The position numbers and the translations under genes are program-made. The notes beneath the pieces are model-generated. The model searched no databases. It saw nothing but the letters and a program-made list of their open reading frames with translations, and had not been told where the DNA came from. Below are positions 2,911 to 32,264 of a stretch of 35,492 nt of DNA, piece after piece. This DNA is from Lachnospiraceae bacterium (GTDB taxonomy: Bacteria; Bacillota; Clostridia; Lachnospirales; Lachnospiraceae): contig JAFUFL010000012.1 in the NCBI GenBank assembly GCA_017469935.1, forward strand, positions 1 through 35,492. The letters are read 5' to 3'. Every line of letters starts with the position of its first letter. Position 1 is the first letter of the stretch.

Positions 2911-4113
2911 CTACTCCCACAAGAATTCTTCGCCGATGAAAGGAAGGAAGACCAGCTCCAGATCTCCCACGCTGATCCGGTCGTATGGCGATAAATATAC
3001 GCTCTTATTCACGATCTGCCCGTTCAGATAGCCGGTTTCTGCGGGATACTTCTGAAAAACAAATCTTTTGAAAGGCACATAGAAGAATATTCTGCCGTAG
3101 ATCCGCATTCCGCTTCCCGCCTTGGGCCTGCACCTCAGTGTGCTTCCATCGAAGCAGATGAGATTGTCCCCTTCGAAAATTTCAATACTCCTGCCGTATT
3201 TTTTCCCGGCGCCGGTGCAGACGAGCCATCCGGCCACGCGTTTACCGGCTATTTCTTCCTCATACTGCCTGTCCGCAGCATCCGTGCCCACAGTCTCTTT
3301 GCGGTCGCCCTCTTCCGCTTCTCTGCCGGGCAGTGTTGACTGCATCCGGTCTGACGCTCTGTTCGGCAGCGGCGACTGTTCCTCTTCGTAGGACGCCTTC
3401 GGCAGCGGTGACTGCTCCTCCCCGTAGGACGTCTTCGGCAGCGGTGACTGCTCCTCTTCATAGGACGTCGCCTTCGGCAGCGGTGACTGCTCCTCTTCGT
3501 AGGACGTCCTCGGCAGCGGTGACTGCTCCTCTTCGTAGGACGTCCTCGGCAGCGGTGACTGCTCCTCCTCGTAGGACGTCTTCGGCAGCGGTGACTGCTC
3601 CTCTTCGTACGACGTCTTCGGCAGCGGTGACTGCTCCTCCTCGTAGGACGTCTTCGGCAGCGGCGACTGTTCCTCTTCGTACGACGTCTTCGGCAGCGGT
3701 GACTGCTCCTCCTCGTAGGACACTCTCGGCAGCGGCGACTGTTCCACTTCGTAGGGCGTCCTCGGCAGTGGCGACTGCTCCTCTTCGTACGACACCTTCG
3801 GCAGCGGCGACTGCCTGTCGTCGTCATCGTCGTCCAAGGCGACCGTTCTGTCGTCATCGTCGTCCAAGGCGACCGTGCTGTCATCGTCCTCATCCGGGTT
3901 CGGTATATACGGCGTTGTGCCTCTCGCCCACTCTTCTTCCGTCAACATCCGGGGCGTGTTATCTTTATCGAACATATCGTGAGGAACACTTCCAAACGGG
4001 TATTCAATCTTTTCTTTCTGTATGTTTTTCTTCTTACAATACGGGCATGTCTCGTAGATCGCCGCATCATAGATATGATTGTTGTCACAATACTTCAGAA
4101 TAGGTAAGCTCAT
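2911..4113 (-). CDS. Zinc-ribbon / acidic-repeat / FHA-like protein
   Basis: Protein of 400 residues in four blocks. (1) 1-30: a mini zinc-binding motif with C9, H13, C23 and C26 (CPYC). (2) 75-100: a poly-Asp stretch with two TVALDDDDD units (Thr80 and Thr90). (3) 101-263: thirteen 12-13 residue units starting QSPLP and usually ending SYEEE, plus a last degenerate QSTLP. (4) 290-400: an FHA-like domain with YGR at 306-308, a YLNGQIVN turn at 362-369 and DRISVG at 378-383. The usual SRxH block is not recognisable, so phosphothreonine binding is uncertain. The start overlaps the kinase gene by 29 bp with an AGAGG site. TxxL in an acidic context resembles intramolecular FHA ligands such as those of GarA/OdhI, so a kinase-controlled switch is plausible (inference). 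Confidence 0.8.
   Translation of the reverse strand: MSLPILKYCDNNHIYDAAIYETCPYCKKKNIQKEKIEYPFGSVPHDMFDKDNTPRMLTEEEWARGTTPYIPNPDEDDDSTVALDDDDDRTVALDDDDDDRQSPLPKVSYEEEQSPLPRTPYEVEQSPLPRVSYEEEQSPLPKTSYEEEQSPLPKTSYEEEQSPLPKTSYEEEQSPLPKTSYEEEQSPLPRTSYEEEQSPLPRTSYEEEQSPLPKATSYEEEQSPLPKTSYGEEQSPLPKASYEEEQSPLPNRASDRMQSTLPGREAEEGDRKETVGTDAADRQYEEEIAGKRVAGWLVCTGAGKKYGRSIEIFEGDNLICFDGSTLRCRPKAGSGMRIYGRIFFYVPFKRFVFQKYPAETGYLNGQIVNKSVYLSPYDRISVGDLELVFLPFIGEEFLWE
3325..3813 (-). repeat. 36-bp tandem coding repeat (QSPLP units)
   Basis: About 13.5 copies of a 36-bp unit in frame, encoding QSPLP-K/R-T-SYEEE-type 12-mers. One copy carries an extra codon (13 residues, KATSYEEE). Central copies are nearly identical at DNA level, while the outer ones diverge (RTPYEVE, NRASDRM). 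This indicates expansion from the middle and likely copy-number variation between strains. Confidence 0.95.
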
Positions 4114-5218
4114 AATCCTCTTCTACCATCATTTCTTCCTGCGTTGCCTCTCCCAATATGCGAGAGGAAAGCGGACTCTTAAGGAAAATAAAAGTTGCTC
4201 CTGCCAATACCGCGATCATCAGAATAACAATGACCACCGGCAATATGGAAGACTGCTCCTGATCATTCAGCGCATCCCAGAATGCAATGACCGAGTCGTA
4301 CCTTTCCATAGGATCAAGATTAAGTGCCTGGAACAGAGCATTCTCGGCGTTCTTCGGAATACTGATTCCCACTTCCGAAGGTCTCGGGATGATCTCGTGA
4401 TTTTCCAGTCTTTTCTGCGAATCGACAGGTTTTGCCAGCGTGATGCAGTAATAAATTGTTGCCGCAAGCCCGTAGACGTCCGTCCACGTGCCGATCGGCC
4501 CATTGGCCTGATATTGTTCGGGCGGTGCATATCCCCTTTTGAAGGAGACAATATCGTCCACTTCTCTGTTATTAATGTCTACCGCGCCGCCGAAATCCAG
4601 CAGTTTGATCCTTCCGTCATTCAGGACCATGATGTTGTCGGGGCTGATATCCTTGTGGATGACATCGAAGGAATGAACCTTATCGAGCGCCATGAAAACA
4701 GGCGCCACCATCTCCATCGTGTTTTCAAATGTAAGCGGGCCGTATTTCTGAACAAAGTCGCGAAGCGTGATCCCGTCGAGCCATTCCATGACAATATAGG
4801 AAGTGTTATTCTCCTCAAAGTGCTCTCTTACATTTACAATACCTTCGCTGTCCTTCTCGGTGAAGCGTGCCAGTACTCTGGCTTCCTGCAGAAATCGCTT
4901 CTTGTTCTCCTCAAAGACAGCCTGCCTGCTCGGTTCGACTATGACTTCCGGGCCGCGCCGCTTTGACTTTTTCTTTAAGAACAGTTCCTTAATGGCAACC
5001 TTTGTCTCAAGGTGAAGATCATATCCTATATAAGTGATTCCAAATCCGCCCTGCCCTTTTGCTCTTCCCAGGATATACTTGCCGTTGAGAGGCGTCATCG
5101 GGGGGAGGTGGTCCGGAGGAACAATGTACTTAGAATTCTCAAATCCGCAGTACGGACACATATCACTGCCGTCCGGTTTATTTCTCATACAATTGAAACA
5201 TATGTTACGAATTTTCAT
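4085..5218 (-). CDS. Membrane-anchored Hanks-type Ser/Thr protein kinase with N-terminal zinc ribbon
   Basis: Protein of 377 residues. An N-terminal zinc ribbon has C7-x2-C10 and C21-x2-C24. The kinase domain spans about 46-315: glycine loop GQGGFG at 55-60, ATP-binding Lys77 in VAIK, catalytic HKD at 188-190 (HRD with Lys for Arg), Asn195, DFG at 208-210 and APPEQ at 231-235. One TM helix at about 325-346 is followed by a short acidic outer tail of about 30 residues, with no PASTA or other sensor repeats. All residues needed for activity are present. It is the first gene of the operon, behind a good promoter, and overlaps the FHA-like gene by 29 bp. The zinc ribbon is similar in layout to that of the FHA-like protein, so the two may be recruited by a shared partner (inference). 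Confidence 0.95.
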   Translation of the reverse strand: MKIRNICFNCMRNKPDGSDMCPYCGFENSKYIVPPDHLPPMTPLNGKYILGRAKGQGGFGITYIGYDLHLETKVAIKELFLKKKSKRRGPEVIVEPSRQAVFEENKKRFLQEARVLARFTEKDSEGIVNVREHFEENNTSYIVMEWLDGITLRDFVQKYGPLTFENTMEMVAPVFMALDKVHSFDVIHKDISPDNIMVLNDGRIKLLDFGGAVDINNREVDDIVSFKRGYAPPEQYQANGPIGTWTDVYGLAATIYYCITLAKPVDSQKRLENHEIIPRPSEVGISIPKNAENALFQALNLDPMERYDSVIAFWDALNDQEQSSILPVVIVILMIAVLAGATFIFLKSPLSSRILGEATQEEMMVEEDYELTYSEVL

Positions 5219-5291
5219 TCCCTGACCTTATTCCGGGCACAGCTGAAATGCCGGTAATCCTTTCTCTTAAATGCCTGATAAACCACTTAAA

Positions 5292-5320
5292 ATTATAGTC
5301 TTAATACTGTTGAGATTCAA
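5292..5320 (-). promoter_or_regulatory. Promoter of the kinase-FHA-PP2C-Tad operon
   Basis: On the minus strand a -35 TTGAAT (5315-5320) and a perfect -10 TATAAT (5292-5297) are separated by 17 bp. It lies about 75 bp upstream of the kinase start and gives a leader of roughly 65 nt. Confidence 0.75.
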
Positions 5321-5462
5321 GTTGACCGGCCTGCAGCGGGGATCATTGGACAGTTTTTTACCCACAAATGCCGGGCCGCACTAAAAATTGTTGATGTATT
5401 GATTATACTCCTCTCCGAGTAACAAGTTGTAATGTAAACGTCATAATCGTTCCTTTTGCAGG

Positions 5463-5504
5463 CAAAAAATTCCGGGCGGTTTTGATTTCTCAATCCGCCC
5501 GGAA
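5463..5504 (-). terminator. Rho-independent terminator of the nitroreductase/ABC/MATE operon
   Basis: Perfect 10-bp stem (5470-5479 with 5495-5504), 15-nt loop, then six T on the minus strand. It lies about 60 bp after the MATE stop codon. Confidence 0.9.
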
Positions 5505-5562
5505 AGATCCGTGTTAAAGCCCGCAGAGCGAGTCGCTATGGCTGCGCCGCTCTAAAGCCCGA

Positions 5563-6936
5563 TTATCTGTTTTCTCTCAGTCTTCTCCTGAACCTGAAGT
5601 AGAGCACCCCCGCCGTAACCGCCGACGTGACCTCCGCAAAGGGCGTCGCCAGCGTGACGCCGTTCAGCCCGATCAGCATCTTGAAGAGGATCATGGCCGG
5701 AATATCCACGACGCCTTTTCTCATGATCGAGAGAATAAGGGAATAGCGCCTCAGTCCCGCCGCCTGGAAGATGGTGTTGGCCATATAGGACAGCGCGCAG
5801 AGCGGAGCCGCAAAGGCGATGACGCTCAAAAACTGCGTGCCGAATTCCACGCTGGCCGGCTCGTCGATGAAGAACGTGATCAACTGTGGTGCAAACGTCC
5901 GGAACAGGATGGTGCAGCAGATCGTGAAGGTCAGCGCCACACCGGCCGTGAATTTGATCGTCTTCTCCATGCGCTCGAACTTCCGGGCGCCGTAATTGTA
6001 GGCGATGAGCGGCAGAACGCCCTGGGTCAGGCCCATGCAGGTGTTGAAGGCGATCATGTTCACTTTTTTGGCAATGCCCATGCCCGCCACCGCCGCGCTC
6101 CCGTACTCCACCACCAGTTTGTTGGCGAAGATGTTGGAGACCATGGCCAGGAAGGTCTGCAGAGCCGCCGCCGATCCGATGGAGAAGACTTCTCCCGGAA
6201 TGCCCTCCCCGACGGTCAGATCGCCCGGCGAGAAGGTGAACACCGGATTGTCCCGGTGCCTGTACAGATAGATCAAAAAATAGCCCAGCGCAATGGTATT
6301 GGACAGGCAGGTCGCGATCGCGGCGCCCGTTACTTCCATCCCTCGCGGCAGCAGCACGAACATGAACAGCGGATCCAGGATGATGTTGAGCACGCCGCCC
6401 AGCGACATGCCAAAGCCGGCCTCCTTCGCCGCGCCGATGGACCGCACCAGGTGCCCGCAGAGCGCGTTGCCCAGCGTCGGGATGGCGCCCACCACCATGG
6501 TCCAGAACATGTAGTCATAGATGTAGGCGTAGGATTCCTCGTTGCCTCCGATCAGCGGGATCAGCCAGGGGCGCACGAAGAACAGGACGATCCCATAGAC
6601 GACCGCCGCCGCCAGCCCTCCGTACAGGCTGAAAGCGAAAATTTTGCGCGCACGGTCCGGCTCCTTCCTTCCAAGTGCCCTGGAGATCGCGCTGGAGCCG
6701 CCGATTCCGAACAGGTTGGCCAGTGCCATGATAATGACATAGATGGGAAGGCTCACGGAGAGCGCAGCCACCATGGCCGGGCTCCCGGTCCGCCCCACAT
6801 ACCAGGCGTCCGCGAAATTGTAGATGACGTTGATCAGCTGCGTGATGATGGTCGGAATGGCCATGGTAAACACGGCCTGCGGGATCGGGGCCTGTTCAAA
6901 GATCCATATTCTGTTCTTGTTGTCCTCTCTGCTCAT
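5563..6936 (-). CDS. MATE-family multidrug/Na+ antiporter
   Basis: Integral membrane exporter of about 457 residues, the normal MATE length, with about 12 hydrophobic helices. Family-typical features are the N-terminal PTIITQLINVIYNFADAWYVG region and internal repetition of the two six-helix halves (AGMGIAKKVNMIAFNTCMG in the second half). The ATG at 6934-6936 (MSREDNKNR) is preferred; an in-frame GTG 21 bases upstream lacks a ribosome binding site, while GGGAAG lies before the ATG. It is the last gene of a three-gene operon with an ABC exporter 31 bp upstream and a nitroreductase. The combination suggests detoxification or export of a redox-active or xenobiotic compound. The substrate cannot be read from sequence. 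Confidence 0.93.
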   Translation of the reverse strand: MSREDNKNRIWIFEQAPIPQAVFTMAIPTIITQLINVIYNFADAWYVGRTGSPAMVAALSVSLPIYVIIMALANLFGIGGSSAISRALGRKEPDRARKIFAFSLYGGLAAAVVYGIVLFFVRPWLIPLIGGNEESYAYIYDYMFWTMVVGAIPTLGNALCGHLVRSIGAAKEAGFGMSLGGVLNIILDPLFMFVLLPRGMEVTGAAIATCLSNTIALGYFLIYLYRHRDNPVFTFSPGDLTVGEGIPGEVFSIGSAAALQTFLAMVSNIFANKLVVEYGSAAVAGMGIAKKVNMIAFNTCMGLTQGVLPLIAYNYGARKFERMEKTIKFTAGVALTFTICCTILFRTFAPQLITFFIDEPASVEFGTQFLSVIAFAAPLCALSYMANTIFQAAGLRRYSLILSIMRKGVVDIPAMILFKMLIGLNGVTLATPFAEVTSAVTAGVLYFRFRRRLRENR

Positions 6937-19432: not shown

Positions 19433-20692
19433 CTACTCTCTCCTAAGCGCATCAATAGGATTAAGATTCGCCGCCTGCACGGACGGCAGAAATCCGAAGA
19501 TCACACCGATCGCCATCGAAAACAGCACGCTCAGAATAATCGCCGGTATGCTGATCGCGACCGGCGTGCCGGCGGCCTTGGAAATAACTTCCGCAAGGAT
19601 GATGCCCGATATGACACCGATAATGCCGCCAAGGCTTGTGAGCACCACTGCCTCGGTAAGAAATTGTGCCAGAATCCGGCTGTTCCTTGCTCCAAGGGCC
19701 TTTTTGAGTCCGATCTCGTTCGTTCTCTCCGTCACGGAGACCAGCATGATGTTCATGACGCCGATTCCGCCGACCAGAAGAGCAATGCTGGCGATCCAAA
19801 TCAGCAGGCTGTTGGTACTGTTGGCCAGTTCCTGCTTATTGCGAGCTTTCTCCAGAAGGTCCTCCGCCTTATAGGTGACCGCATCTTCTCCCGAGCCGCT
19901 GCCGCCGACGGATTTTTTCATGATCTGCTCGACCTTCCGGCCCACTTCACTCATCCTTTCCGTGGACACCGCTCTCACAACGCAGTCCTGCGGCTCATCA
20001 TAATTGTACAGGATCGGCCAGTCCGCGTCGGGAATCAGGACCAGTCCGAACTCCTCCCTGGTGTACGTTTCGTAGTCCTGCAGCGTCTCGATCACCGGCT
20101 GGAAATTGTCCGCCTTTTTGATCAGGCCCACCACAATAAAGGGCTCTCCCATAAGTTCCACCGTCCGACCGACCGCGTCTTTCCCGGGAAACAGAAGCTG
20201 TGCTGCCTTTTCATCCAGCAGTGCCACTTTGCGGAATCTCTTATAATCCGATTCCACGAAGGGCCTCCCCTGATAGACAATGTATCCAACCGTCGACAGG
20301 TAGTGGGAATCCACCCCGAAAAGGCTTCCTCCCGAAAGAGAATTGACGCCTGCCGTAATTTCCGACGCGTACTTCCTCTTAAGGTAGAAGGATGCGTCTG
20401 CCACGCCGCTCAGTTCCCTGATCTCTTTGATCTGAGAATCCGTGACGGGAATCACATTGCCCGGCATTCCCGCGTCCATCCAATATTCCGATTCTCCCTG
20501 CCGCAAAGAGATCGTCACGTTATTATTTCCTGCGCCGATCAGATTCTGCATGATCTGCTCGTTTGTCCCCTTAATGGTGGAGACGATGGCAATGATCGAT
20601 GCGATTCCGATGATCACGCCCAGCATGGTCAGAAAGGAACGCAGCTTATGCGACCAGATTCCTTTCAGCGCAAGCCTGATATTTTCGCTCAT
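19433..20692 (-). CDS. MacB/YknZ-type ABC transporter permease
   Basis: Membrane subunit of 419 residues with MacB topology. TM1 follows MSENIRLALKGIWSHKLRSFL and covers LTMLGVIIGIASIIAIVS (about 23-40). A large extracellular domain (about 45-275) is followed by three C-terminal helices of the FtsX domain with the VSVTERTNEIGLKKALGAR motif (about 315-333). It lacks a nucleotide-binding domain, which is encoded separately two genes upstream. The ATG at 20690-20692 with GAGGAG is preferred; an upstream in-frame ATG has no site. It is the last gene of a four-gene operon. MacB-like systems use mechanotransmission rather than direct transport, moving peptides or lipids with a periplasmic or wall-side adaptor. 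Confidence 0.93.
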   Translation of the reverse strand: MSENIRLALKGIWSHKLRSFLTMLGVIIGIASIIAIVSTIKGTNEQIMQNLIGAGNNNVTISLRQGESEYWMDAGMPGNVIPVTDSQIKEIRELSGVADASFYLKRKYASEITAGVNSLSGGSLFGVDSHYLSTVGYIVYQGRPFVESDYKRFRKVALLDEKAAQLLFPGKDAVGRTVELMGEPFIVVGLIKKADNFQPVIETLQDYETYTREEFGLVLIPDADWPILYNYDEPQDCVVRAVSTERMSEVGRKVEQIMKKSVGGSGSGEDAVTYKAEDLLEKARNKQELANSTNSLLIWIASIALLVGGIGVMNIMLVSVTERTNEIGLKKALGARNSRILAQFLTEAVVLTSLGGIIGVISGIILAEVISKAAGTPVAISIPAIILSVLFSMAIGVIFGFLPSVQAANLNPIDALRRE

Positions 20693-20726
20693 ATCCGTAC
20701 TCCTCATGTCTGTTCACGGATTTCAA

Positions 20727-20838: not shown

Positions 20839-23421
20839 TCACTCATAAAGCTCTCTGAGCGTCGCCTCTCTGGTCTTCGCCCCCTCTTTCACGTTTTTGC
20901 CGTAAGGGAATGCGACCCAGTCGCTCTCGCTCAGCCCGTCGATCACTTCATAGCCGTTGTCGCTCAGCGTCCCGGTTATGATGTACTGCTTGGTGAGCTT
21001 TCCGTTTTCATCCCGCTTATAGACATATTTTTTGTTGCCATCTTCCCTGACAAAAGCTTTCATCACTGTCAAAGTATTGCTCGTCCCGGTGTTTTCGGAA
21101 GTCGTGTAAGAGACCTCGACCCACTCTCCGTTCATCATCTGGGCACTCTTGTCACCCACAACGGCGGTAAAAGGATAATACGTTTCCGTGCCGCTGCCGT
21201 CAAACATCCCCGTAGTGTCCGGATAAGGGGAAATGCTCTTGATTTCCGCCGGATACTGCCCGCCGGTCTGCCAGGAAGTCACCATGACTATGTCCCCTTC
21301 TTTGATGGTCCCCAGCTTACTCTCCTTGATTCCGCTCCTTACGTAGAGTCCCTCTGTTCCGGAGACAACGATAAATGCGCTTCCGTCCGTCGGCGGCGCC
21401 TCCGGATCTCCCGCCGTCTTGACGATGCCGTCCATGCCGGCGGTCACAACGCCCTTATCCAGCGCATTCTGGGCCTTCTCGATCTTGATCTCGGATTCCT
21501 TGAGGTCCACCTCCAGGTCACGTAACTTTTCCCGGGCTTCCCGTCTGGCTTTGGCCAGCTCGTCGCTCGTATAGCTGATATCTCCCGACAGGATCTGGCT
21601 TCCGGATCCCGAGCCCGTGCCCGTGCCGGGTGCCGGAGCTGTTGCGGGAACCGACTCTCCGCCGGTCGCGTTCTCATTCTGCGCAGGCTCCTCCTGGGGC
21701 TCCTCCTGGGGCTGCTCCTCAGGCTCCGGTGCCGGCTCTTTCGGCTCCTCGGACTCCTGTGCCGGCTCTTTCGGCTCCTCGGACTCCTGTGCCGGCTCTT
21801 GTACCGGCTCTTTAGGCTTCTCGGACTCCTCTTCCGGCTTCGAAGGCTCCGCCGAAATCTCTTCTTCCTTAGTCGGATCAGTGGTTTCCGGTTTCACAGT
21901 CGGAACATTTTCATCATCTTCACTTTTCTTTTCGTCATCCTTCTGTTTCGCCAGCAGCTCCTCTATTTCTTCGCCTCTCAATTCAACGAGTGCCTTAAGC
22001 TGATCGTCAGTCAGATTCATAAAGAACGTTTCCATTTTTTCCGGATCCAGACTAGCAATTTGAGTGTCCGTCATCTCCGTAAACAGTTTGGTAAGAAACT
22101 CATTATCCAATTCTTTAATCTGAGTTTCGCTCAACCCGTTAAAAAACGTCGCTATAACACTTGAATCAATTTTCTCGATCTGCTCAGCCGAAAGCTTCTG
22201 CAGAAAAGCGGAAAGCACCACCGAATCAATCGCCTTGATCTGCTCCTCACTGGCATTCTCCAAAAGCATCGTCAGCATGTCGGCAAGAGCTTCCGAATCA
22301 ATTTCTTCAATCTGCTCAGTCGTAAGATTTTCGGAAAGGCTCTTAAACATGACGGAAAGTGTCTTCCCGTCCAGAAGGGCCGCTGCAGCCGCAAACTCTT
22401 CTGCAAAGTTCTCCTCATAAAGCGCATTCCCGCACAGCTCGTTAAGCATCCCCGCTAGCAGCGCTCCGCGCTCTGCGAGCTGGTCCGGCGTCTGATCCGA
22501 TCCCGAAGTGATCAGGAGCTTATCCATGAGGGTGGCGAGCCATGCGCCGCGTTCCTCCTCCGGGACATCCGTCAGAATCTTTCGGAGCAGCTGCGCCAGT
22601 TCTTCCGGCTTATTCATGGCGGCGTAACTTGTTTTTCCTGTCGCCATGTCCACTTCAATGTCATACAGCTGATCCAGAAGCATGATATCCGTGATCCACG
22701 CTTTCTGCAGCGCCTTTGCGCTGTCTCTGGTCTGCAGCGCTATGTAGAGATGTTTTGCCTTTTTCTTTTCGGCTGTTTTCTGCCATTTTTTGATAAAGTC
22801 TTTGGTGATCACGACCGATCCGCCCTTGCACAGAAAAACATAGGGCGTATCTTCCGTTCCCAGGAAAATGTCCTCGGGATCGTCGCTGACAGGCTTTGCA
22901 TCCGCCTTCAGAATGTGCTCGTGCACCTGGGCCTTGCTGAGTATATCCTCCGCCTCGATCTCGCTGAAATCCCAGGCCAGGTCAATATCTCCCCCGTCGG
23001 AAGTCGGTGAAGCATTGTCAAGGGTCTTGATATTTTCCTTGGCAACTACGATCGCCAGCTCTATTTTTTCGCGGTTGAGCTTCTCTTTCTCAAGTTTGAG
23101 CTCGGTGGCCCTGGTGTCGTAACGCAGGAGCGCATCGCCCTTATGGACGGCCTGCCCCTCCTGCACCAGCACTTCCTCGACCTTTTCCGTATCGGAAAGA
23201 TAGACGTTCTGCTCGGCCTCCGTCGTGATCATGCCGGTCACACTGTTTTGCCAGTCCAGATAATTTCCGTAATTGAGGTCGGCAACCGGCACGACCGCCA
23301 CTGTCGATGAAGTGGTCGATCGGACCGCTGCCACGATCCCTGCAATGATCGCGGCCACAAGGAGCAGCGAAACCGCTCCTATTGCCGCTTTCTTTTTATT
23401 TCCGCTCAGGTTGTTAAACAT
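20839..23421 (-). CDS. HlyD/MacA-like membrane-fusion protein with large helical-repeat and P/E-rich insertion
   Basis: Protein of 860 residues, about twice the usual adaptor length. TM helix at about 12-33. First lipoyl half at about 65-103 (VEEVLVQEGQAVHKGDALLRYD), then one hairpin helix (about 105-135). Normal adaptors return within 50-150 residues; here about 140-610 is inserted: a charged unrecognised domain (about 180-350), then 20-residue units at about 366-475 with the pattern L-S/T-x-x-Q-I-x-x-I/L-D followed by a short hydrophobic helix (five clear copies, a sixth decayed), then a Pro/Glu/Lys-rich linker (about 500-600) and a Gly/Ser stretch. The second hairpin helix (about 615-655), lipoyl half (GVVTAGMDGIVK) and beta domain follow. 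The GGAGGAG site fits the start. It sits between the ATPase and permease genes. Confidence 0.85.
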   Translation of the reverse strand: MFNNLSGNKKKAAIGAVSLLLVAAIIAGIVAAVRSTTSSTVAVVPVADLNYGNYLDWQNSVTGMITTEAEQNVYLSDTEKVEEVLVQEGQAVHKGDALLRYDTRATELKLEKEKLNREKIELAIVVAKENIKTLDNASPTSDGGDIDLAWDFSEIEAEDILSKAQVHEHILKADAKPVSDDPEDIFLGTEDTPYVFLCKGGSVVITKDFIKKWQKTAEKKKAKHLYIALQTRDSAKALQKAWITDIMLLDQLYDIEVDMATGKTSYAAMNKPEELAQLLRKILTDVPEEERGAWLATLMDKLLITSGSDQTPDQLAERGALLAGMLNELCGNALYEENFAEEFAAAAALLDGKTLSVMFKSLSENLTTEQIEEIDSEALADMLTMLLENASEEQIKAIDSVVLSAFLQKLSAEQIEKIDSSVIATFFNGLSETQIKELDNEFLTKLFTEMTDTQIASLDPEKMETFFMNLTDDQLKALVELRGEEIEELLAKQKDDEKKSEDDENVPTVKPETTDPTKEEEISAEPSKPEEESEKPKEPVQEPAQESEEPKEPAQESEEPKEPAPEPEEQPQEEPQEEPAQNENATGGESVPATAPAPGTGTGSGSGSQILSGDISYTSDELAKARREAREKLRDLEVDLKESEIKIEKAQNALDKGVVTAGMDGIVKTAGDPEAPPTDGSAFIVVSGTEGLYVRSGIKESKLGTIKEGDIVMVTSWQTGGQYPAEIKSISPYPDTTGMFDGSGTETYYPFTAVVGDKSAQMMNGEWVEVSYTTSENTGTSNTLTVMKAFVREDGNKKYVYKRDENGKLTKQYIITGTLSDNGYEVIDGLSESDWVAFPYGKNVKEGAKTREATLRELYE

Positions 23422-23482: not shown

Positions 23483-23558
23483 GTCTCATCCTTCTTCCGG
23501 GCGTCCCGGTTCCCCGTCTTAGTCTCATCCTTCTTCCAGGTGTCCCAGTTCCCCGTCT
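23483..23558. repeat. Tandem 37-bp duplication at the 3' end of the ABC ATPase gene
   Basis: Two copies (23483-23519 and 23522-23558) with 3 mismatches and a 39-bp period. The right copy encodes the last residues and stop of the ATPase (HLEEG). The left copy is non-coding, downstream of the stop. Confidence 0.85.
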
Positions 23559-24208
23559 CTGATCTCCACTCTGTTCCTGGCCCGCCCGGCGATTCCCTGG
23601 TCATGCGTGATCATGAGCACTGTCACTCCGTCCGCGTTGAGTTCTTCGAACAGATCCATGACCTGTGCCCCCGAATGGGAATCCAGGGCTCCCGTCGGCT
23701 CGTCCGCAAGAACGATTCTGGGGTTATTGACGAGCGCCCGCGCGATCGCCACTCTCTGCTTCTGTCCGCCGGACAGCTGATTGGGCAAAAAATCCATTCT
23801 GTCCGTCAGTCCGACTCGGGCCAGCGCCTGCTCTGCCCTCTCTCTTCTCACTTTGCGCGGTATATCGGCATACGTCAGGGGGAGCTCCACGTTTTCAAGG
23901 GCCGTCTGTCCGCCCAGCAGCTGAAAGTTCTGGAAGACAAACCCGATCTTCTCCAGGCGAAGATCCGCCAGCTCGTTCTCCGTCAGCTTTCCCACCTCTT
24001 TTCCATCGATCAGCAGGCTCCCGCTCGTGGGTTTGTCCAGGCAGCCGATCAGGTTCATCAGCGTGGACTTACCGGACCCGGAGGGACCGATGATGGCCGT
24101 GTAGTCCCCTTCTTCCATGGTAAAATTTATGTTCTTAAGTACGGGTACCTCTATTTTGCCCTGGTAATAGTTCTTATAGAGATCAATGCACTCCACGATT
24201 TTCTTCAT
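23525..24208 (-). CDS. MacB/LolD-type ABC transporter ATPase
   Basis: Cytoplasmic ATPase subunit of 227 residues. Walker A GPSGSGKST (about 42-50), Q-loop VFQNFQLL, signature LSGGQKQRVAIAR, Walker B ILADEPTGALD (DEPTGALD is the form typical of the MacB/LolD class) and His-switch MITHDQ are all intact. The ATG overlaps the stop codon of the preceding adaptor gene by one base (TAATG), indicating translational coupling. It partners the permease at 19433-20692 and the two adaptor proteins. The 3' end has been tandemly duplicated beyond the stop. Confidence 0.96.
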   Translation of the reverse strand: MKKIVECIDLYKNYYQGKIEVPVLKNINFTMEEGDYTAIIGPSGSGKSTLMNLIGCLDKPTSGSLLIDGKEVGKLTENELADLRLEKIGFVFQNFQLLGGQTALENVELPLTYADIPRKVRRERAEQALARVGLTDRMDFLPNQLSGGQKQRVAIARALVNNPRIVLADEPTGALDSHSGAQVMDLFEELNADGVTVLMITHDQGIAGRARNRVEIRDGELGHLEEG

Positions 24209-25623
24209 TACTGCCCTCCGACCACATCAAGAACTCCGGAGCCGGCTCCGCCCTCCTGCGGAATATCTCCTGCTTCCTCGGAGACGCCTTCTTCTCCCTC
24301 GACCGGGCTTTCCTCTCCGGCAGGCTCCTCTCCGGCTTCCGGGAGTCCTTCCATAACCGAGGAGGTGCCTTCTGTCTGTGAAGGAGCAGCCGCTTCGCCG
24401 CCTTCATTCATCTCTTCGTCGCCGGACTGTCCGTCTTCCTCTGCCGGTTTCTCGCTCATCGGCGCCGTCTTCATGCCGACGCTCAGAGACGGGTCAGGAA
24501 TACAAATAGAATCCTCCGGCGAAAGTCCTTCCGAGATCTTCACCTTGTCCAGTTCTTCCCTTACTTCCGAGATCGTCACTTCCTGCTTGACCAGCTTGCC
24601 GTGAGAATCTTTCCAGACAAAAGGGTGATCCGGATCTGTCTGGTCCACCATATAAGAGGGGAGCCAGATTCCTTCGGATATGCCCTCCTCGCCCTGGTCC
24701 AGATCAGGTTCCACGTAGACGTGCTGTCCCATGATCAGCCCTTCACTGTTTTCAAGCTCCACATAAAAAGGATAGCTCGTGCTCTTACTGCCTTCGGAAT
24801 TCATGCCCATGAAGTTCCCGCCTTCCGAAGTCACGGCGTTATCGGTGTCAATCTTGGTGATCGTTCCCTTCCAGGTATTGTCGTTGACTCTTGAATGAAC
24901 GATGACGGGCGCGTCCACGTAAAGATCGCCTATATTTTGTTCATTTACGGTTCCCTTTACCCGGTAATTGCCCACCTTCATAACGGTGATGAAACTGTTG
25001 TCACCGGAGTCCGAGGAGGAGCCGCCCTCGTTGATTTTCTTTACAACGCCGTCGATCCCGCTCTTTACTTCCGCATTCCCGATGTTGTCCTCGAGCTTAT
25101 CGATCTCCGCTTCTTTCATCTCAATATCAAGTTCCTTGTCCTTGAGAGAGAGATTCTGTTCCTTGATCTGGACAGTGTAGTTGGCCTGCTCCGACGATGA
25201 GGCTTCCCTTTTTTCCTTTTCCAGCTGCGCGATCGCCTCCACTGTGCTGTCGTATTCATTGCTGAGCCGCTCCAGATCGATCTCCGCCTGCCTCAGGTCT
25301 TCCTCATACTTGGTGGTATCATAAACAAAGAGGACATCGCCCTCTTTCACTTCATCGCCTTCCGAGACAAAAATCTCCTCGACGTCGACATCGCTGTTCT
25401 TGGTCACCGACCAGGTTCCCTGCGGCTCGATGACACCCGAATAGCGGTTGATCATGCCAAGCGACGCATTTTGCCCCGTCAGATTCTCAACCGTCTCCAC
25501 ATAGGCTGTTCCTTCATTCAGACTGCCTGACCCTGCATGCCTGAAGATCAGTACCGCCGCGATGATCAGTACTGCGGCAGCGACTATGATCCATTTCTTA
25601 TTTTTCTGAATAACCTCAACCAT
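24208..25623 (-). CDS. HlyD/MacA-like membrane-fusion protein (first adaptor of the operon)
   Basis: Adaptor of about 471 residues. Short basic N-terminus then TM helix (WIIVAAAVLIIAAVLIF, about 10-27), lipoyl half (VEEIFVSEGDEVKEGDVLFVYD), a coiled-coil hairpin of about 90 residues rich in Glu/Lys (about 100-190), lipoyl half (VKSGIDGVVKKINEG) and a beta-barrel domain. The C-terminal 85 residues are an acidic Glu/Gly/Pro/Ser-rich tail without clear fold. ATG at 25621-25623 is chosen, since the hydrophobic anchor follows 10 residues later; the ribosome site AGAGAG is weak. The layout resembles YknX of the Bacillus YknWXYZ system. The downstream ATPase gene is coupled by overlap. Confidence 0.9.
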   Translation of the reverse strand: MVEVIQKNKKWIIVAAAVLIIAAVLIFRHAGSGSLNEGTAYVETVENLTGQNASLGMINRYSGVIEPQGTWSVTKNSDVDVEEIFVSEGDEVKEGDVLFVYDTTKYEEDLRQAEIDLERLSNEYDSTVEAIAQLEKEKREASSSEQANYTVQIKEQNLSLKDKELDIEMKEAEIDKLEDNIGNAEVKSGIDGVVKKINEGGSSSDSGDNSFITVMKVGNYRVKGTVNEQNIGDLYVDAPVIVHSRVNDNTWKGTITKIDTDNAVTSEGGNFMGMNSEGSKSTSYPFYVELENSEGLIMGQHVYVEPDLDQGEEGISEGIWLPSYMVDQTDPDHPFVWKDSHGKLVKQEVTISEVREELDKVKISEGLSPEDSICIPDPSLSVGMKTAPMSEKPAEEDGQSGDEEMNEGGEAAAPSQTEGTSSVMEGLPEAGEEPAGEESPVEGEEGVSEEAGDIPQEGGAGSGVLDVVGGQ

Positions 25624-25669: not shown

Positions 25670-25698
25670 GTTATACGATATGAGAGCGCAAAATCCAA
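25670..25698 (-). promoter_or_regulatory. Promoter of the double-adaptor MacAB-like operon
   Basis: Minus strand -35 TTGGAT (25693-25698), 17-bp spacer, -10 TATAAC (25670-25675), about 45 bp before the first adaptor's ATG. Confidence 0.5.
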
Positions 25699-29813: not shown

Positions 29814-32264
29814 TCAATAATGAAGGAAATCCTTATCCCTCAGAATAATTCTCTGCGCTCCTCCCTTTCTGCGGGAGAAGGAATCCACAAGGCTCGAGAT
29901 CGTCTTGCGGCTTGCATAATAGATCGCCTCATCCACGATATCCCGAATGTCTTCCAGCGTGACGCTGTGCTCTATAGTCTGCATGGACAGGATCCTGCTC
30001 TGCAGGGCACTGATTCCGTACTCATCGATTTCGCACTGCTGCTTGCCGGCATACTCCCTCGCATATCCCAGGAGCGTGTCCACGCTCAGAGCCGCTATGT
30101 CCACTCTGGCCGGGAACATTTCCCTGAGTCTGGGATGATCATTCAGGAATGCGTCCATGACGCCCTTCCTGTCTATCATGATGATCAGAATGCTCCGCTC
30201 CGGAACCGCCAGCATCTCGCACAGCGCTGCGGCGCCCTCCTCAGACATCCGCGATGCTCTCTCGATGATCAGCGCTCCGAACGGCATTCTGGGAATCACG
30301 CGCACCACGTTCTCCCTGGTGATATATATGCCTTCCGACTTGGCGATCTGCCCGACGAAATTAGGGTTGATCTGCCGGTACCTGCGCACCAGCTCTCTCG
30401 ACAGGCTCAGTGTTCCCGCGCCTTCGTCACCGGTGATCACGACATTTCCCCTGCCGCCTTCCAGGAAGATCCTTCCCAGAGCGTCCGACAGCTGCCGGAT
30501 GGAATCCTCGGAGTGAAGATACATATGCCCCGTCGTCTTGCGCTTTCTGTCGGTGGTGGTGAGCGTCATCTGCTCAACCGTGAATTCTTTCGGGAAGTCT
30601 CCCCCGCCCTCCGTCACGAAAAGGCTGGTATCATATCCCTCGTTGCCTTCGTCGTTATCTCTGATCTGAAGTGCCTTGCGAACTTCCCCCGGATCCCATG
30701 ACTTGGTCCCCGACGAAGCTGCACCGCCCTCTCCGGACCTTCCGTCTCTCATAAGCGGCGGCACCTTTACCGTCTCGTCCCCCGGCTCCCGGGGCTCGTC
30801 CGCCTCAAGGCCGTTGGATTCGTAGAAATCCCTCTTGACCTTCTCCCACTCCTGCATGATCTCCTCGAGACTCAGCTGTCCCGTGATCTGCTTGTCGGGT
30901 TTGGGCTCTTCCTGCATGACCATGGCATACTGTCCGTCGGTCTCCTGCATAAGGACCGTGTCGTAGTTTTCAAGGTCCCGGAGTCCCTTGGCCACCGTCT
31001 CCTGCATCTTCTCCTGAGAGAACATGGGCTCGTCCATACCGCCCACTTCAAAGGAATGGTCCTCAAACACCGCATGGTCCGGAGTCGACGGCACGTCAGC
31101 CTCCCGATCGTGTGTCTCCGCCCCGCGCGTTTTCCTTCTCGAAGCCGAATCCTGTCTGCGGTTTTTTCCCCGTTCCTTCTCTGTTGTCCTCTTTTTCCTT
31201 TTCAGCTCTCTGGGGCTGACCTCGTACTCCTCGTACTCCCAGGGTATTTCCGCGGTCTCCGGCTCCCTGTTGAGAGCGGGAATGGAATCAACGGACTCCT
31301 GCGGCTGCACGGACTCCCGCTGTGCGGGCTCCAATCCCTGCTCGTCCCGGCCGCCGGGCTCCTCCCCGGCATGGTCGGTTCGTTCCGGTTCCTCTTCCCG
31401 AGGGGCTCCGCCTTCGGGATCTGCCGGCTCCGGCTCCGCTTCATTTTGGTCCGGCTCCGCTCCCGCGGCGCTTTCCGCCTCTGACCGGTCACTGTCGTAA
31501 GTGTCTCCGCCGCTCTCGTCCCACGCTTCGGGTTTCCCGGCCGCAGCCTCTTCGGAGGTTTCCTCCCGGGGACCGGCTTGCGCAGCTTCTGCGGGCTCCG
31601 CCTGCCGCTCCGGTTCCTGTACCGTCTCCGCCTGCGGAACTTCCTCCTCTTCTCCGTTCATCTTTCTGTAAAGCGCCTTTTGCTTTTCAGTCAGTTCCGT
31701 AAAAGAGGCTTTCAGCTGCAGTGCCTTATACACATATTTGCCATATCCGAAAAAGGCAATGATCTCATCGCACTCGGAAGCACACAGCGTTCTCTCTCCG
31801 GCTTCCAGATAGAGCCTGGCCAGTTCATAGGCCCATTTGTCCCTGAAATCATACCTGGCCATCTCCTCGAGGACGGCGATCCTCTCGTTTACGCTCACAT
31901 TCTGGGCCTTGTACAGCTTGTACTGAAGTACATAGCGGTCCGCGTCTCTGGGCGCCACATTGATATACTCGTTATAGAGCTGCAGTGCCCGCACATAATT
32001 TCCCAGTTTCAGTTCGAGTTCACACAGTGAAAAAATGATCTGCCTTCCGTACGGGCTCTTGGCATAAGCCAGTTCCAGAACCCGCTTGCTGTCATGGTAT
32101 CTTTTATTTATTTTATAGACGTCGCTGATCCTGCAGAGCGTCCTGACATTCTTCACTCTGCGCCAGTCTACCGAATCAGCCACCTCGGCTGCATCCTTGA
32201 AGCGACGCCGTGCGATCAGTGAATCTATTTCATTGATCGTAACTTTAAGTTCATATTTATCCAA
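29814..32264 (-). CDS. TPR protein with long acidic linker and degenerate CbbX/EccA-like AAA+ domain
   Basis: Protein of 816 residues. About 1-200: alpha-helical TPR-like repeats (ALQLYNEYINVAPRDADRY and similar). About 205-560: Glu/Pro/Arg-rich disordered linker with a basic patch (RELKRKKRTTEKERGKNRR, 352-370). About 575-790: AAA+ fold. The Walker A position reads GDEGAGTL (612-619) with Thr for the essential Lys, and the Walker B position reads ALIIERA (664-670) where CbbX/EccA have FIDEA. Both ATPase motifs are thus broken, while FVGQIAKSEG and the following spacing still match that group. Start TTG at 32264 has GAGG 7 bases upstream; no in-frame ATG fits. It is monocistronic behind a TTGACA promoter. 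Function unknown; a scaffold is likely. Confidence 0.8.
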   Translation of the reverse strand: MDKYELKVTINEIDSLIARRRFKDAAEVADSVDWRRVKNVRTLCRISDVYKINKRYHDSKRVLELAYAKSPYGRQIIFSLCELELKLGNYVRALQLYNEYINVAPRDADRYVLQYKLYKAQNVSVNERIAVLEEMARYDFRDKWAYELARLYLEAGERTLCASECDEIIAFFGYGKYVYKALQLKASFTELTEKQKALYRKMNGEEEEVPQAETVQEPERQAEPAEAAQAGPREETSEEAAAGKPEAWDESGGDTYDSDRSEAESAAGAEPDQNEAEPEPADPEGGAPREEEPERTDHAGEEPGGRDEQGLEPAQRESVQPQESVDSIPALNREPETAEIPWEYEEYEVSPRELKRKKRTTEKERGKNRRQDSASRRKTRGAETHDREADVPSTPDHAVFEDHSFEVGGMDEPMFSQEKMQETVAKGLRDLENYDTVLMQETDGQYAMVMQEEPKPDKQITGQLSLEEIMQEWEKVKRDFYESNGLEADEPREPGDETVKVPPLMRDGRSGEGGAASSGTKSWDPGEVRKALQIRDNDEGNEGYDTSLFVTEGGGDFPKEFTVEQMTLTTTDRKRKTTGHMYLHSEDSIRQLSDALGRIFLEGGRGNVVITGDEGAGTLSLSRELVRRYRQINPNFVGQIAKSEGIYITRENVVRVIPRMPFGALIIERASRMSEEGAAALCEMLAVPERSILIIMIDRKGVMDAFLNDHPRLREMFPARVDIAALSVDTLLGYAREYAGKQQCEIDEYGISALQSRILSMQTIEHSVTLEDIRDIVDEAIYYASRKTISSLVDSFSRRKGGAQRIILRDKDFLHY

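Follow-up and report, generated by a model that had tools for sequence, protein, structure and literature searches.

A two-adaptor MacAB-like gene set of Lachnospiraceae with an unnamed conserved domain at the hairpin tip of one adaptor

ATP hydrolysis drives extrusion by MacB-type motors, and hexameric tubes are built from MacA-type adaptors (PMC5768738); the TolC-docking motif RxxxLxxxxxxS/T lies at the tip of the adaptor hairpin (PMC3391258). Because the known job of the hairpin is to meet an outer-membrane channel, a review has called its conservation in Gram-positive adaptors puzzling (PMC4338810). The window analysed here, a stretch of 35,492 nucleotides from a Lachnospiraceae bacterium, encodes an adaptor with a very long segment between its two lipoyl halves, and raises the question of what a hairpin tip could be doing in such a host. 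The sequence-only reading of this DNA had suggested a long helical arm in the place of the hairpin. It is now evident that the larger finding lies beyond the helical repeats, in a conserved two-adaptor gene set and an unnamed tip domain.

The adaptor, termed adaptor B or MFPB, is encoded by one intact open frame whose coordinates are borne out, and its parts are as follows.

20839..23421, minus strand: adaptor B (MFPB), 860 aa; hairpin tip enlarged by 479 residues
23323..23388, minus strand: single transmembrane helix, residues 12-33, from the sequence by eye; model helix 8-35, low confidence
23119..23304, minus strand: N-terminal core and first lipoyl half, residues 40-101; Biotin_lipoyl_2 at 80-102, region conserved in relatives
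23017..23118, minus strand: hairpin arm 1, residues 102-135; model helix, 34 aa in 90/96 MFPB
22873..23016, minus strand: short linker on the N-side of the tip domain, residues 136-183; pLDDT <50 for 141-185
22636..22872, minus strand: conserved tip domain, residues 184-262; HMM core 186-247
22327..22635, minus strand: helical region between tip domain and repeats, residues 263-365; modelled helices, block pLDDT mostly 53-78
21952..22326, minus strand: five to six 20-residue helix-pair repeats, alpha-solenoid, residues 366-490; from self-score, unit HMM and models
21580..21921, minus strand: disordered Pro/Glu then Gly/Ser linker, residues 501-614; pLDDT 25-32 for 501-610
21451..21579, minus strand: hairpin arm 2, residues 615-657; model helix, 43 aa in 87/96 MFPB
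20842..21450, minus strand: second lipoyl half, beta-barrel and membrane-proximal region, residues 658-860; TIGR01730 at 621-848, region conserved in relatives

The lipoyl halves, the transmembrane helix, the repeats and the Pro/Glu and Gly/Ser stretches are where the sequence-only reading had placed them, and the domain that it could not recognise is real and turns out to be the widespread part of the MFPB insert. To judge from its sequence, MFPB is a MacA/HlyD-type adaptor with an expanded hairpin tip, and by the Pfam matches in the window it is encoded together with a MacB-type ATPase and permease. Biotin_lipoyl_2 matches with 25.2 bits (E 1.4e-5), below the Pfam cut-off of 29.8, and TIGR01730 (RND_mfp) matches in two stretches, of which the one listed is the best, with E 7.5e-20 and 71.1 bits, below its cut-off of 94.9. 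Two lipoyl halves around a helical hairpin are indicated by these profiles, the modelled helices and the constant arm lengths, the lipoyl fold itself being of low confidence in the model. AlphaFold, supplied with the window protein and eight relatives (9 sequences), predicted helices at 103-135 and 619-656 on either side of the insert, with block pLDDT of 67-79 mid-helix and 46-54 at the ends; the full-length model is weak in the core (mean pLDDT 49.1) and is relied on here for no more than the two arms, the helical repeats and the disordered linker. Its top Foldseek match is Spr0693 (5xu0_B, E 1.9e-3), and no PDB entry matched either this model or that of the insert with an E of 0.001 or lower; the latter shows a likeness to generic helical solenoids only. 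The 479 residues that separate the arms (136-614) include a Pro/Glu-rich stretch at about 501-600, within which lies a DNA tandem repeat (21686-21839; units of 12, 30 and 42 nt among others), and a Gly/Ser stretch at about 601-611.

It is hardly conceivable that so unusual a protein is an assembly artefact or a chance fusion of two genes, as the same architecture recurs in eight contigs, two of them partial, from assemblies of other Lachnospiraceae, with overall identities of 47-76%, and parts of it are under purifying selection. The expectation that a similar insertion would be found beside MacB-like permeases elsewhere in Lachnospiraceae has proved correct across the family. In the window, MFPB is accompanied by three further genes.

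24208..25623, minus strand: adaptor A (MFPA), MacA-type membrane-fusion protein; ordinary 81-residue hairpin, TIGR01730 E 1.5e-18
23525..24208, minus strand: MacB-type ATPase subunit (NBD); ABC_tran E 8.4e-37, NF007826 E 3.8e-78
19433..20707, minus strand: MacB-type permease subunit; MacB_PCD E 1e-28 and FtsX E 4e-21, both above cut-off

The TIGR01730 score of MFPA is 66.9 bits, below the cut-off; its open frame extends to a TTG at 25698, with the ATG at 25623 (MVEVIQKNKKW...) the likelier start by eye. The MacB model NF007826 covers the ATPase over its first 221 model positions and scores below its whole-protein cut-off. All four genes lie on the same strand, with the MFPA and ATPase frames overlapping by a base and the two remaining gaps measuring 103 and 131 nt, and they are probably co-transcribed.

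The order MFPA-ATPase-MFPB-permease, with MFPB as the third gene, is complete in 80 of the 88 loci collected, which comprise 74 places in 73 genomes (own excluded), 8 close relatives and, from a second family of what is probably the order Lachnospirales, 6 loci. Six of the 88 are truncated by contig ends (L038, L039, L085, L091, L098, L132), and in L084 and L086 MFPA stands directly before MFPB, with no intervening ATPase found in the fetched stretch. In the family search, at least 74 of 299 genomes matched at E 1e-20, a lower bound since the family member L205, with its two-adaptor order, comes from a genome outside the 74. Gene order and phylogeny agree that two distinct adaptors are encoded with one transporter: MFPA and MFPB fall on either side of a single branch (SH-aLRT 100, 37 rows each) in a quick tree of 37 chosen loci, computed with no bootstraps, from which rows of fewer than 250/270 core residues were dropped and in which L127_B and L129_B are long branches. 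Sequences were assigned to A or B by whichever window protein gave them the higher BLAST score, which is somewhat circular for the count of gene orders; the tree separates the two independently.

Further afield, 57 of 298 genomes in the phylum search were among the matches listed, and 15 loci were picked among the better ones, 14 of them (12 genomes) outside the family and the fifteenth being L205, which belongs to it and shows the two-adaptor order. In nine of the 14 outside loci an adaptor lies beside an ATPase and a permease, one adaptor in each, either in the order adaptor-ATPase-permease (L201, L202, L204, L206, L208, L212, L213) or in another (L210, L215); the remaining five (L203, L207, L209, L211, L214) have no ATPase/permease pair beside the adaptor. 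All 15 picked loci, L205 included, lacked a detectable tip domain. Given the single adaptor of the outside sets, the lineage leading to this group apparently gained a second one, placed between the ATPase and the permease, the direction of the change being presumed. A mobile-element origin was also considered and rejected, no plasmid match having been found. One unannotated phage record matches the C-half of the adaptor only, at 38%.

How do the two adaptors differ? The MFPA hairpin has 81 residues in 80 of 92 sequences, while in MFPB both arms are kept at the constant lengths listed above and the stretch between them runs from 4 to 754 residues (median 264.5, n=96). These lengths were cut from MAFFT alignments at the window columns and include partial frames (L038, L039, L091, L114 and others), from which the short values mostly come. 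The two MFPB arms together make 77 residues, close to the MFPA hairpin, and the insertion point is the tip, in agreement with the sequence-only reading. The hairpin, on the other hand, is neither missing nor replaced, as had been proposed: both arms are present, at constant length and with helices in the model. Some inserts are very simple, with a plain hairpin in L111 (4 residues between the arms), bare Pro/Glu or Ser/Asp-rich linkers in L122, L103 and L101, and a linker alone at the tip in L205, while L069 has up to three tip domains in one insert. The plain hairpin of L111 and the linker of L205 imply that whatever sits on the tip is dispensable.

The OEP/TolC family (PF02321) has 0 matches in the own genome, which is 98.55% complete, and none in 8 same-genus genomes; of 13 genomes searched, three have weak matches, and these three belong to other families of the order. 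The docking pattern was present in 0 of 92 MFPA hairpins (one of them empty, its ORF being cut) and in 4 of 96 MFPB arm pairs, counts that carry no chance estimate, and by eye it is absent from the arms of the window MFPB. The 8 named close relatives of MFPB are all Lachnospiraceae, and together with the missing TolC family this upholds the Gram-positive host that had been supposed.

The widespread component of the MFPB insert is a domain of about 67 residues, modelled in the window as strand-helix-strand with low confidence (block pLDDT mostly 33-71). Its HMM, seeded on the motif G-T-x-x-x-P-Y-x-F-L-C and then iterated, matches 37 of 39 first-round ORFs, among them the window's own; of the two without a match, one frame is cut by the end of the locus and the other is a fragment of the window protein. 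Across the 88 MFPB frames the domain is found in 63, a count that rises to 69-72 because the limits were relaxed and the model was rebuilt on the same frames. A further 18 frames match the profile weakly, each copy below 35 bits, and 16 of the 88 have no match even after iteration; among these, L070, L107 and L121 resemble diverged copies by eye and the others are clearly without the domain. On the tip-presence tree, 8 changes are required, so that the domain has been lost, or has diverged past detection, several times; in this tree the tip domain of seven rows (win_B, L148, L153, L155-L158) was assigned by eye, and rows of fewer than 260 core residues were dropped.

In wider samples the domain keeps to the same setting. 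In the order sample, 13 of 295 genomes match the profile, two of them weakly and partially (one at E 6e-4 in a frame of 29 residues, probably by chance, the other at E 8e-4 within an MFPB), and the 11 of these 13 that were traced to a gene, G550 and G567 being left out, all lie in MFPB, that of the own genome by position. In the phylum sample of 299 genomes only the own genome matches. A Pfam scan of 34 copies gave no family in more than two members, with a best E of 0.0014 in one copy, and an hmmsearch against PDB sequences found no relative (best E 0.89). An identity as an enzyme was considered and rejected on this lack of a family match and the scarcity of invariant residues, of which the alignment holds only G8 and P13 (first-row numbering), and hence no sign of a catalytic set.

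The domain is under purifying selection. Between close relatives, its dN/dS is 0.03-0.19, against 0.03-0.18 for the cores and 0.23-0.45 for the linker, from a simple Nei-Gojobori count over four pairs, two of which share L033; where copies fall out of register or are saturated, the figures for solenoid and linker are not dependable, and dS of the solenoid between the window and L035 is not defined. These figures bear on the idea that a hairpin tip freed from TolC is simply unconstrained, so that repeats and low-complexity sequence pile up there with no function. The wide range of insert lengths, the DNA tandem repeats and fast evolution of the linker, and the several MFPB with no detectable tip domain are what such tolerated expansion would produce. 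Nevertheless, a tip domain with a dN/dS as low as that of the cores, detected in 63-72 of 88 frames, is difficult to reconcile with it, and MFPA at the same loci has not expanded; we consider this explanation quite improbable.

The helical repeats, which first drew attention to the locus, are real as well. Over residues 361-490, the mean BLOSUM62 self-score at offset 20 is 1.09, compared with a shuffle mean of -0.59 (sd 0.21), and 0 of 2000 shuffles reach 1.09 at any offset from 5 to 44, which places the 20-residue period of MFPB far beyond chance. The unit HMM finds five units (366-385, 390-409, 410-429, 430-449, 450-469), to which a degenerate sixth may be added by eye; since its unit set came from the window MFPB, it counts the repeats and does not test them. 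The array is helical in the models, with block pLDDT of 71-86 over 341-490 in the full-length model and similar values in the insert model, and so differs from a non-helical domain of a known enzyme family. In the family sample of 299 genomes, the solenoid profile matches the own genome and gives two weak hits, one of these (E 1.1e-5) being an MgtE-like frame by eye, judged by reading. Even within the genus the array varies: by the window-derived HMM there are five units in the window and L035, three in L033, L040 and L148, and two in L034 and L038, while L155-L158 by eye have two tip domains and no array.

Within the samples searched, the array is thus a lineage-specific extension confined to the window's own clade, and as a general feature of MFPB inserts it is ruled out. 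A weak Foldseek match (2oux) and the MgtE-like frame had also prompted the thought that the repeats are MgtE_N (PF03448), with which they share short helical repeats; the profile comparison excludes membership (hhalign, 9.5% probability over 32 columns), and MgtE_N is not among the Pfam matches of MFPB. A long helical wall-spanning arm in place of the hairpin, as first supposed, had in its favour that the repeats, the site and the host were as described. With both arms of the hairpin in place and an array restricted to the own genome and two weak matches, it cannot be the general arm, and it now appears very improbable; the widespread part is the tip domain with its variable linkers.

With gene order, two adaptor clades, fixed arms around a variable insert, a selected tip domain and helical repeats in hand as observations, a mechanism can be proposed, to which we would give about an even chance: a mixed tube of A and B on a MacB-type motor, in which the MFPB tips, rather than meeting TolC, extend a headgear into the wall. 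MFPB would be the second adaptor of a four-protein MacAB-like ABC exporter (MFPA, ATPase, MFPB, permease), in which ATP-driven movement of the permease would push a substrate, most likely a peptide or an amphiphile, into the tube; outward direction and substrate class are both presumed. MFPA and MFPB may jointly build that tube, a mixing suggested by analogy with TriA and TriB. As the MFPA hairpin and the MFPB arms match in length, one barrel of even height is possible, and, the AlphaFold core being poor, this can be argued from the arm lengths in the sequence. What speaks against the reading are the two loci with no ATPase between the adaptors, the MFPB in which the tip domain is undetected or weakly matched, and the bare tips of L111 and L205.

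Atop the hairpin, most MFPB would bear the headgear, that is, the domain of about 67 residues on flexible, fast-evolving linkers, to which some lineages would add modules: the 20-residue solenoid in the window, and Cna_B or List_Bact repeats in two others. As there is no outer membrane to dock with, this headgear most likely extends into the peptidoglycan or beyond it, and would there bind a wall or surface component and fix the mouth of the tube at the wall; wall binding is suggested by position and composition. The MFPB arm may likewise span the wall, as first supposed, which would fit the composition of the linkers and their position above a tube whose pneumococcal counterpart has been modelled up to the peptidoglycan (PMC5768738).

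The added modules could also be taken to mean surface display or adhesion, in which the tube would lift adhesin-like modules through the wall and transport would be secondary. The L066 insert holds a Cna_B module (E 1.5e-10) and that of L055 a Flg_new/List_Bact_rpt module (E 2.6e-8), both above cut-off, and Pro/Glu, Ser/Asp and Gly/Ser stalks occur within inserts. However, a recognised surface-protein module was present in just 2 of 20 MFPB relatives scanned, and 80 of 88 loci keep the ATPase and permease alongside the adaptors, which makes display a poor candidate. Somewhat less unlikely, though still improbable, is that the headgear is a receptor, its tip domain capturing an extracellular ligand or substrate such as an antimicrobial peptide and handing it over to the exporter or gating it. 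Gram-positive MacB-type exporters protect against the peptides LL-37 and SDP (PMC5768738; PMC8277102), and a conserved domain tethered by flexible linkers, together with the swapping of modules, would suit such a role. Yet in a receptor for varied ligands the binding domain should vary most, whereas among close relatives it is the linkers that vary, the tip domain being conserved. For the wall-anchored headgear, a wall component is preferred as ligand over an extracellular one, since the wall is within reach in every host.

How the set arose can be put more tentatively still. In one possible history, which we consider less likely than not, an adaptor gene was duplicated, one copy kept the plain hairpin, and the other turned its tip into an exchangeable docking head that would fix the exporter mouth to a wall or surface partner, the counterpart of TolC docking with a new domain on tethers of tuned length. 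The loci amount to a natural experiment, in which adjacent adaptors differ in that one has a rigidly fixed hairpin and the other usually a conserved new tip domain together with a freely varying tether. They also form a natural series, from the plain hairpin (L111) by way of linkers alone (L122, L205) to inserts with one, two and three tip domains, and the domain itself is a definable unit that could be expressed and tested.

A search of the open-licence literature brought up no description of the two-adaptor arrangement or the tip domain among the papers listed, and related systems help to place both. The MacAB-like pump Spr0693-0694-0695 of Streptococcus pneumoniae has, like the window set, Gram-positive MacA/MacB-type parts and an adaptor with lipoyl domain, barrel and hairpin, and its assembly has been modelled to extend about 154 A, close to the dimension of the inner wall space, and to reach the peptidoglycan (PMC5768738). 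It differs in having one adaptor, whose hairpin turns through a short loop (142-163) that is untraced, and the passages on Spr0693 mention no tip domain, solenoid or long linker such as those of MFPB (PMC5768738). YknWXYZ of Bacillus is also a four-component Gram-positive MacB-type exporter with an adaptor; its fourth component, however, is a four-TM protein, where the window set has a second adaptor (PMC8277102; PMC4338810). Two adaptors are found in TriABC-OpmH of Pseudomonas aeruginosa, where both are needed and are presumed to form mixed oligomers, although this is an RND pump with an outer-membrane channel and the passages on it describe no expanded hairpin tip (PMC4338810). Finally, DSY0927 of Desulfitobacterium is another unusual Gram-positive ABC-associated adaptor, which is described as a fusion of two different parts (PMC4338810), unlike MFPB, one adaptor with a tip insert. 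The adaptor of the outside-family locus L206, with its repeated lipoyl-type segments, recalls that fusion.

In L101 (5377-7068), a relative locus with the two-adaptor set, the MFPB insert, the extra sequence at the hairpin tip of adaptor B, consists of a long Ser/Asp-rich repeat. It is reminiscent of the wall-spanning stalks of staphylococcal adhesins. Low-complexity sequence occurs in the window's adaptor A:
24208-24500, (-) strand, long Glu/Gly/Pro-rich low-complexity tail at the C-terminal end of adaptor A
Ordinary MacA proteins are not known to carry such a tail.

Gene order differs in two relative loci, L084 and L086, which run adaptor A, adaptor B, permease, with adaptor B directly after adaptor A; no MacB-type ATPase was found within the fetched stretch of either, that of L084 stopping at the contig end. 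In the window, a 19-nt sequence spanning the end of the ATPase gene, stop codon included, is repeated (23483-23540, (-) strand), with the second copy 39 nt off, between that gene and adaptor B.

Three genomes sharing the window's order but of other families (G299, G300, G302) match PF02321, the outer-membrane efflux family, weakly, though mostly above the cut-off; such matches are unexpected in Gram-positives.

Beyond the two-adaptor set, the single-adaptor gene set of locus L206 encodes an 890-residue adaptor with repeated lipoyl-type segments (3693-6362, (-) strand), bringing to mind DSY0927, the ABC-associated Desulfitobacterium fusion adaptor (PMC4338810). A relative of the adaptor C-half (38% identity) is encoded at 40333-40986 of MT835472.1, a record labelled Bacteriophage sp. 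that is perhaps host DNA on a mislabelled contig.

One further window ORF was noted:
29814-32264, (-) strand, 816-residue ORF
At E 1e-5 it has no match in Pfam, and its NCBIfam matches are weak only.
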